Source: Pseudanabaena sp.
GTDB lineage: Bacteria; Cyanobacteriota; Cyanobacteriia; Pseudanabaenales; Pseudanabaenaceae
Direction of reading: 5' to 3'
Length of the DNA stretch: 64,000 nucleotides
Assembly: GCA_003249035.1 (NCBI GenBank)
Contig: QBMK01000009.1
Coordinates: 49,262 to 113,261, forward strand
In this document: in pieces, positions 1-54,632 of the stretch
Layout of the letters: each line of letters opens with the position of its first letter
Position numbering within the stretch: the first letter of the stretch is position 1
Made by a program: the position numbers and the translations under genes
Notes under the pieces: generated by a model
Told to the model about the DNA's origin: nothing
The model's database searches: none
What the model saw: the letters and a program-made list of their open reading frames with translations, nothing else

Positions 1-87
1 ATTAAACCCAAAATTGGTTCGGCGGGCTTCGCCCGCCGAACCAATTTTGGGTTTAATATGCACACGTTATTTGATTTTCATTCCTTA
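1..87 (-). mobile_element. MITE-like element, copy A (cut by window start)
   Basis: Positions 1-57 are a perfect palindrome with 27-bp arms and a TTC loop. It is followed by an AT-rich arm ending in CATTCC and then TTA at 85-87. Read in reverse complement it matches the copies at 42627-42730 and 54436-54539. By alignment about 13 bp of this copy lie before the window. No coding capacity. Confidence 0.75.
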
Positions 88-42626: not shown

Positions 42627-42730
42627 TTAGGAATGGAAATTAAATAACATGTGCACATAAAACTCAAAACTGGTTCGGCGGGCTTCGCCCGCCGAACCAG
42701 TTTTGAGTTTTATTAAATTATCATTCCTTA
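42627..42730 (+). mobile_element. MITE-like element, copy B (complete)
   Basis: TTA, 98 bp, TTA. The ends GGAATGGAAATTAAATAA and the complement of TTATTAAATTATCATTCC agree at 15 of 18 positions. The centre (42659-42711) is a perfect 25-bp hairpin with a TTC loop. The right TTA is also the stop codon of glbN on the minus strand. No coding capacity. Confidence 0.8.
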
Positions 42731-43102
42731 TCCGTTCAAGACATCTTTCTTGTGTTGAGGAGCAGCAGCCACCGCCGCTACTTCTGCCAAGAGCTCATCG
42801 TTCACTCCCATCTCTTTGAGAGTAATCATCAAATCCTCAGCGACTGCATCAAAGTGATCGCTATTCAAACCCTGCTTTTCTACCAACTCCTTGTGAGCTT
42901 GGCGCATAAAGCGACCATCATATTTATCAGTACCACCAAAGGCATATGTGAGAAATGCTTTTTGATGTTGCCTTTGCCTAACCATATCTGTGCCAGCAAA
43001 AAAGTGCTTGATGCGATCGTCCTGCAATACTCTCTCGTAGAAGCGATCAACAGCTTCGTCAATTGCTGCTTCACCGCCTAGCTTGTCAAATAAGGTTGTC
43101 AT
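42728..43102 (-). CDS. glbN: Cyanoglobin (group I truncated haemoglobin)
   Basis: 124 residues. Begins TTLFDKLGGEAAIDEAVDRF; the distal helix contains RQRQHQKAFLTYAFGG; the proximal haem His is in MRQAHKELVE. Such globins bind O2/NO and protect against reactive nitrogen species in Synechocystis. ATG start. Its TAA stop coincides with the end of a mobile element. Confidence 0.95.
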   Translation of the reverse strand: MTTLFDKLGGEAAIDEAVDRFYERVLQDDRIKHFFAGTDMVRQRQHQKAFLTYAFGGTDKYDGRFMRQAHKELVEKQGLNSDHFDAVAEDLMITLKEMGVNDELLAEVAAVAAAPQHKKDVLNG

Positions 43103-53502: not shown

Positions 53503-54390
53503 GTGCTAGCTGTGCGAGTAAAAGTAACTGTGGCGAAAGAAGAATTTATAAAACTGCTTAATCAAGGCGTAAATAGTTGGAACAGTTGGAGAGCGTCCGA
53601 TCCTGATATGCGTGGCATTGATCTTAGCGAAATTCAACTAGAGGGACTCGATCTGACTGGCATCGACTTGAGTATGGTCAACTTGCGTGGGGCAAAGTTT
53701 CATGACGTGAATCTGTCGTCTGCAAACTTGCGTGGTGCGGACTTAAGTAAGGCAGATCTAAAAGGTATAGATTTGAAAAGTTCAAACCTAGGGACAGCAC
53801 ACCTTAGTATGGTTTGTCTGAGCGAAGCTGATCTTAGCCAAGCAAATTTAAGTGGGGCGGATCTGCGTGGATCAAATCTACGTTTAGCTAAACTCGATCT
53901 CGCTGACTTATCAACAACTAAGCTTAATATGTCTAGCTTGAATGGAGCTAGTATGATTGGGACAATTCTCATTGGCGCAAATTTAAGTCGTGCCGAATTA
54001 AGGGAAGCTAATCTTGCTGGCACTGATTTTAGTCGCGCTAATTTGAGCGAAGCTGATTTGTCTCACTGCAATCTCAATGTCTCAACTTTGGTAGGTACGG
54101 ATTTGATCGGTGCAACTCTGGTAGATATCGATCTGAGCGAGTCCAATTTGACTCGAGCAAATTTAATTGGGGCAAATCTCTATCGCGGAAATCTCTGTGG
54201 CTGCGATCTGATTGGGGCAGATCTTCGCGGAGCAAATTGTAGTGAAGCCTATTTTATTGGAGCCGATTTAAGTCGAGCCGATTTGAGTCGGGCTGAGTTT
54301 ACGAGTGCCAATCTCAGCAAAGCTAATTTTAGTGGTGCAAATACTGAAACCACTGATTTTCAAGGTGCAATTATGCCCGATGTTTGGTAA
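53503..54390 (+). CDS. Pentapeptide-repeat protein
   Basis: 295 residues, of which about 45-290 are A(D/N)Lxx repeats (ANLRGADLSKADLKG and many more). They fold into a right-handed four-sided beta-helix. Function unknown; such proteins act as scaffolds or DNA mimics in other systems. No ATG occurs before residue 36; GTG at 53503 is taken as start, with GTG codons at 53512 and 53530 as alternatives. Confidence 0.88.
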   Translation: MLAVRVKVTVAKEEFIKLLNQGVNSWNSWRASDPDMRGIDLSEIQLEGLDLTGIDLSMVNLRGAKFHDVNLSSANLRGADLSKADLKGIDLKSSNLGTAHLSMVCLSEADLSQANLSGADLRGSNLRLAKLDLADLSTTKLNMSSLNGASMIGTILIGANLSRAELREANLAGTDFSRANLSEADLSHCNLNVSTLVGTDLIGATLVDIDLSESNLTRANLIGANLYRGNLCGCDLIGADLRGANCSEAYFIGADLSRADLSRAEFTSANLSKANFSGANTETTDFQGAIMPDVW

Positions 54391-54394
54391 TTCC

Positions 54395-54587
54395 AAAACA
54401 CAAAATGGCTACACTATTTTGTGTCTTTAAAACCATTAGGAATGAAAATTAAATAACCTGTGCATATAAAACCCAAAATTGGTTCGGCGGGCTTCGCCCA
54501 CCGAACCAATTTTGGGTTTTATTAAATTATCTTTCCTTACTGAGTTTGTTTTTTACACGCAAAAGTGTGACAACACTCTTGTGAATT
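54395..54587. repeat. Family-2 repeat interrupted by MITE copy C
   Basis: AAAACACAAAATGGCTACA and its matching arm (54395-54427) plus AAAACC match the left part of 3786-3890. After the inserted element the match resumes with CTGAGTTTG and ends in TTGTGAATTGGTATA. Interpreted as a nested insertion. Confidence 0.6.
54436..54539 (+). mobile_element. MITE-like element, copy C (complete)
   Basis: TTA, 98 bp, TTA, the same size as copy B and differing at about nine positions. The ends GGAATGAAAATTAAATAA and the complement of TTATTAAATTATCTTTCC agree at 15 of 18. The central 25-bp hairpin (54468-54520) has one mismatch. Confidence 0.8.
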
Positions 54588-54632
54588 GGTATAGGAGTAA
54601 CGAAGTGACAGTTCATGAATTGTCGCTATATT

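Follow-up and report, generated by a model that had tools for sequence, protein, structure and literature searches.

Bacterial MITEs, among them the cyanobacterial Nezha, are short non-coding elements with terminal inverted repeats, a target duplication and many intergenic copies. The element described here resembles them in all these respects, although for Nezha the comparison follows the description given in part of a review and not the sequence (PMC10969869). The available part of that review of prokaryotic MITEs makes no mention of ISAzo13 and names no ISAzo13-derived MITE (PMC10969869). Nor was such a MITE found in the literature searched, whose scope left subscription journals and ISfinder outside: the papers on ISAzo13 mention MITEs only in a general remark and a reference, and those retrieved for Pseudanabaena together with MITEs were, by their listing, unrelated. 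Insertion sequences (IS) of the ISAzo13 family (PF07592, NF033519) share with our element nearly the same terminal sequence and possibly the TWA target with 3-bp flanks, whereas the element is only 98 nt long, has no transposase gene and carries a hairpin that is absent from the IS stretches read. The SPRITE, BOX and RUP repeats of pneumococcus are also small, contain terminator-like hairpins and are sometimes nested, as the same part of the review describes them (PMC10969869), but they have another host and other ends, and they are set beside the MITE by description only. Template switching between short inverted repeats is, in the part of the study available (PMC8604942), associated with homogenization of the arms, inversion of the spacer and TTC/GAA spacers in yeast genes. 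Here, in contrast to that earlier work, one mobile element of a bacterium is present in many copies, which makes the outcomes countable. The kind of element is known, and the new points are its ISAzo13 parent family and a hairpin turnover that can be counted.

The window analysed is a stretch of 64,000 nt from Pseudanabaena sp. (contig QBMK01000009.1). Our best explanation, to which we give a probability of roughly 0.85, is a non-autonomous Pseudanabaena MITE consisting of two ISAzo13-family IS ends around a long perfect hairpin, with mobilisation in trans, template switching and a terminator role as its putative biology.

Structure and copies of the element

An earlier note on this DNA had reported three copies of a 98-bp MITE-like element flanked by TTA. 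Re-reading the sequence reproduced the positions of two of them, copies B and C, their equal length of 98 nt and the TTA on both sides. The 98-nt core of copy B (42630-42727, plus strand) lies between target duplications TTA at 42627-42629 and 42728-42730 and consists of a left end homologous to an ISAzo13-family IS terminus (42630-42656), a left hairpin arm (42657-42683), a 3-nt loop TTC (42684-42686; GAA in 7 of 25 copies of the same genome), a right arm (42687-42713) and a right end with the terminal inverted repeat (42714-42727). The terminal inverted repeats, a feature expected of a MITE, match at 15 of 18 positions, the figure given before. The central hairpin had also been recognised, but its size of 25 bp needs correction, since copy B has a perfect 27-bp stem and a 3-nt loop. 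Copy C occupies 54439-54536 on the plus strand, with TTA at 54436-54438 and 54537-54539, a stem at 54466-54492 and 54496-54522 that contains one mismatch, and a loop at 54493-54495; it is identical to copy B at 95 of 104 positions. Copy A is indeed the same element inverted (1-84, minus strand), with its target duplication at 85-87 reading TTA on the plus strand and TAA on the element strand. Its remainder lies before the window, across a scaffold N, and in the contig the copy is complete, flanked by TAA/TAA on the element strand and broken by the scaffold gap; it measures 139 nt because this one N lies inside its hairpin, just before the window start. A search of the whole window against Rfam returned one tRNA and no match at the MITE, and the statement that the element lacks a transposase of its own holds.

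Three is the count within the window, and the genome holds far more. In its own assembly (G000, 4.55 Mb in 60 contigs) the MITE has 77 BLAST matches, which include many of the hairpin to itself, and its 19-nt left end, with up to three mismatches, has 90 matches vs 4 for a reversed control, numbers far above those expected by chance. Among the loci fetched there, 25 copies are intact, 98 nt long and free of N, the rest being truncated, gapped, cut off or left with one end. Of 26 pairs of MITE ends in named congeners, 20 lie 98 nt apart, giving the short, non-coding, multicopy element of constant size that defines a MITE. Matches were obtained in 16 of 58 genomes, namely the own genome, 15 of 25 congeners and none of the 32 genomes outside the genus. 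The plasmid search gave a single match, in Pseudanabaena galeata CCNP1313, and the phage and viral-contig searches gave none. A first, stricter pattern scan of named genomes returned nothing; a looser scan returned 66 stretches, with most records from Pseudanabaena, and also matched Phormidium tenue FACHB-1050. In a contig labelled as a Gammaproteobacteria MAG (L289, JAADHS010000201.1), which is possibly a misbinned cyanobacterial contig, we saw a 178-bp element with MITE ends and TTA/TTA flanks.

Variant forms also occur. In P. galeata (G022, L146 221-254) a 28-bp palindrome with flanks TAA/TTA consists of two MITE ends without the hairpin and looks like a copy whose hairpin went by internal deletion. 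Four loci of the own genome (L055, L054, L064 and L078) carry single MITE-type ends or diverged copies beside different hairpins, suggesting sister subfamilies in which the hairpin was exchanged. Finally, 19 contig ends of the own assembly fall inside the MITE (L007, L034, L039, L056, L058, L062, L063, L065-L067 and L069-L077), which suggests that the hairpin stops assembly.

Target duplication and MITE-free sites

The suggested duplication of TTA stands as a 3-bp duplication but not as one of TTA only, the target being TWA (TTA or TAA). The flanks of the 25 intact own copies are TTA/TTA in 13, TAA/TAA in 8 and unequal in 4, i.e. equal in 21 of 25, and among the 24 congener elements that are shorter than 130 nt and retain both flanks, 20 show equal TTA or TAA, the other 4 being unequal; both counts were made without requiring TWA. 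One of the unequal cases, L025 (GTA/TTA), adjoins another repeat ending in GGGAGTA, and a second insertion into its target would be a possible cause of the mismatch. A repeat with ends TACTCCCTTCCCA...TGGGAAGGGAGTA directly adjoins MITE copies at L059, L057 and L025, as if nested at TA.

Sites free of the MITE came from copy C, which splits a dispersed host repeat of about 110 bp (54388-54593 on the plus strand, as 54388-54438 and 54540-54593). The repeat is common in the genus, serves the MITE as a landing site, has inverted ends ATACCAA...TTGGTAT and may itself be a mobile hairpin element. Twenty congener stretches of it were compared. Nineteen (L244-L262) have no MITE and an uninterrupted joint, where the triplet is TTA in 18 and CTA in one (L246); these 18 are the sites with a single TTA that the earlier note had proposed to look for. 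In the twentieth (L263) a MITE of the family is inserted at the triplet used by copy C, but in reverse orientation, and L080 and L145 have MITEs at other triplets of the same repeat. At the locus orthologous to copy C, G008 has neither repeat nor MITE and G016 has a repeat variant without the MITE. Copy B gave no orthologous MITE-free site because the two genes beside it had their congener matches at different places, and comparison of the L016 site with G018, and of the L064 site with G021 and G003, gave no match across the MITE. These loci record insertion with a 3-bp TWA duplication and show that one triplet of a single host repeat has been hit in both orientations.

A dispersed repeat or terminator that is no transposon and spreads in the manner of REP-like hairpins would agree with the copies that retain the hairpin and one end only (among them L334, L335, L345 and L348), but not with a length fixed at 98 nt, TTA or TAA flanks that are equal within each copy and one host repeat hit in both orientations; the MITE-free sites with their single triplet contradict it, and we regard it as extremely improbable. 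The element is a real MITE, with a target site duplication found in both flank counts and at the MITE-free sites, and the proposal of a mobile MITE-like element is supported by its fixed length, shared ends, TWA duplication and MITE-free sites.

A probable ISAzo13-family parent element

Congener loci with the same ends as the MITE contain pieces of a transposase. Two such pieces score 248.9 and 38.5 bits against PF07592, both passing the cut-off of 26.9 bits, and against NF033519, the model of the ISAzo13 family (cut-off 200), one passes with 270.6 bits and the second stays below with 79.2; the parent transposase accordingly belongs to ISAzo13 by the better piece (PF07592 248.9, NF033519 270.6 bits). 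The 5-prime IS terminus GGAATGAAAAATAAATAACTTGTGCAAAT agrees with the left end of the MITE at 28 of 29 positions in P. biceps O153 and at 26 of 29 in the own consensus. The right end agrees less well with the IS ends (15/20 in the own genome, and 16/20), so that ends shared with an autonomous element of the lineage are found on the left and more weakly on the right. Two internally deleted IS copies in one congener are flanked by TAA/TAA and TTA/TTA, respectively. What is observed in congeners is a larger element whose ends are nearly those of the MITE and which holds ISAzo13 transposase pieces. The earlier note had recognised no named family; the element can now be tied to ISAzo13, and the note's idea of a full IS with GGAAWGA termini led to this larger IS with GGAATGA termini, of which an intact copy was not seen.

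Within the genus 17 of 26 genomes contain PF07592, as do none of 14 control genomes, and relatives of the transposase piece turned up across the class in 54 of 388 genomes and 31 of 160 genera. Automatic detection of inverted repeats bordered by equal 3-bp sequences worked at only 2 of 30 ISAzo13 loci, and for this reason an end pattern requiring TWA was adopted. With it, 9 of 13 ISAzo13 loci of other cyanobacteria with both ends visible have equal triplets, a proportion that is not significant alone.

In the own genome, none of the 90 left-end matches is an IS-type end, apart from one diverged single end at L078, and the transposase piece, searched across the class, had no hit in this genome at 1e-30. 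The helper was thus not seen where the MITE is most abundant. The six own PF07592 matches are remnants, and the two examined (L172 and L187) have no such ends; neither these two remnants nor the left-end matches revealed a cognate IS in the same genome. Across the genus no intact cognate IS was seen, as the transposase pieces end at contig ends or are broken. The helper IS in the own genome is therefore missing, unassembled or lost.

The own genome, with no visible cognate IS end, does have DDE_Tnp_1 and DDE_Tnp_4 genes, and one could imagine the MITE being mobilised by a transposase from a different family with 3-bp duplications, e.g. of IS5 type. We searched for a parent among these transposases, but at none of the 11 loci fetched does a MITE end pair surround the transposase, and the congener ISAzo13 pieces, which share the MITE ends, are the only such carriers seen, making this alternative highly unlikely. 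We favour an ISAzo13 transposase, which would recognise the GGAATGA ends and move the MITE in trans. One IS of this DDE_Tnp group, which encodes a PF13359 transposase and has the ends AGACTTCATCGGAAATAA (L052 2590-3640, G000:C58), truncates a MITE copy (L022/L052).

Insertion context and turnover of the hairpin

Of the 25 intact own copies, 23 lie between predicted ORFs, one lies inside an ORF and one is unclassified; at L014, measured by open frames, the copy sits within a long frame, 20 codons from its end. Convergent gene pairs show no clear signal of preference (5 of 23 classified copies vs 6 of 44 gaps in the window). The right TTA of copy B is the stop codon of the minus-strand ORF 42728-43102, and because this triplet is duplicated the ORF survives the insertion; congener matches to its gene start at the same place. 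Insertion exactly in the TAA stop codon of a frame of more than 100 codons was seen in two of the 25 copies (L001, which is copy B, and L025). A search for a promoter-like site in the MITE found none, while the hairpin gave six terminator-like hits, overlapping registers of one hairpin with three per strand, vs 0.3 in shuffles. At its landing sites, mostly between genes, the hairpin may act as a bidirectional transcription terminator.

The arms of the hairpin change together. Pairing extends to 98.1% of the stem cells in the 25 own copies, and 11 pairs, with 23 cells, have changed on both sides, vs shuffled means of 2.6 and 3.0; neither value is reached in any of 500 shuffles. The 20 congener copies (14 distinct) have 8 pairs and 11 cells changed on both sides vs 1.3 and 1.4 in shuffles. 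G000 and G016 have one insertion in common, and between them its arms show two compensatory pair changes as well as two single changes close to the loop. Selected RNA structures are classically recognised by compensatory change, and the hairpin does resemble a strong bidirectional terminator, so the covariation could come from selection on a terminator or small RNA and not from template switching. However, 15 of the 23 own double changes cannot pass via a G-U pair, as they are of transversion type, and single changes led to mismatches in 13 cells and to G-U in 5; the congener set differs here (transversions 7/12, mismatches 3, G-U 4). Furthermore, stem selection leaves loop inversion unexplained. 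We consider selection as the source of the covariation rather unlikely, and RNA-level selection on the hairpin may act as well as template switching.

The 45 loops read TTC (22), GAA (14), AAA (4), TTT (4) and TAA (1), i.e. 44 of 45 belong to TTC, GAA, TTT or AAA. In 38 pairs of copies identical elsewhere, the loops are reverse-complementary in 10, the same in 8 and otherwise different in 20. On a poorly resolved tree built from the rest of the element, loop orientation changes 11 times, at least four of these changes being forced by supported branches; as the shuffled mean is 11.8, orientation is not clustered.

Such flips might, at least in part, be produced by assemblers walking a palindrome the wrong way. 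The 27-bp arms are palindromic, the 19 own contig ends named above fall inside the MITE, and copy A and L040 each have a gap within the hairpin; but flipping would require words no longer than the arm, and it leaves the compensatory arm changes unexplained. Both orientations also occur with the same arms in P. biceps O153, which has a main scaffold of 4 Mb (identical arms, GAA at L339 and TTC at L344), and in P. galeata, assembled in 6 contigs (TTC at L330-L332, GAA on the element strand of the one-ended L333). Artefact is thus a very improbable source of the flips.

Homogenization of arms and inversion of the spacer are described as an outcome of template switching in the available parts of two studies (PMC8604942, PMC8794818), and both loop orientations (TTC/GAA and TTT/AAA) are as switching during replication predicts. 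We propose that one arm would template the other during replication, by which the arms would stay alike and the loop would flip. A more specific version, in which a fold-back or cruciform step in transposition or replication repairs the arms and randomises loop orientation, with re-copying tied to amplification, we hold to be doubtful and quite unlikely; if true, the MITE family would keep a natural count of template switching, and the hairpin would have a working role in the life cycle of the MITE and not be a passenger.

On the practical side, the MITE would account for break positions of this assembly. ISAzo13 is added to the transposase families with a MITE, and the Pseudanabaena copies offer a natural multi-copy bacterial system where the marks of template switching, homogenized arms and inverted loops, are countable and testable.
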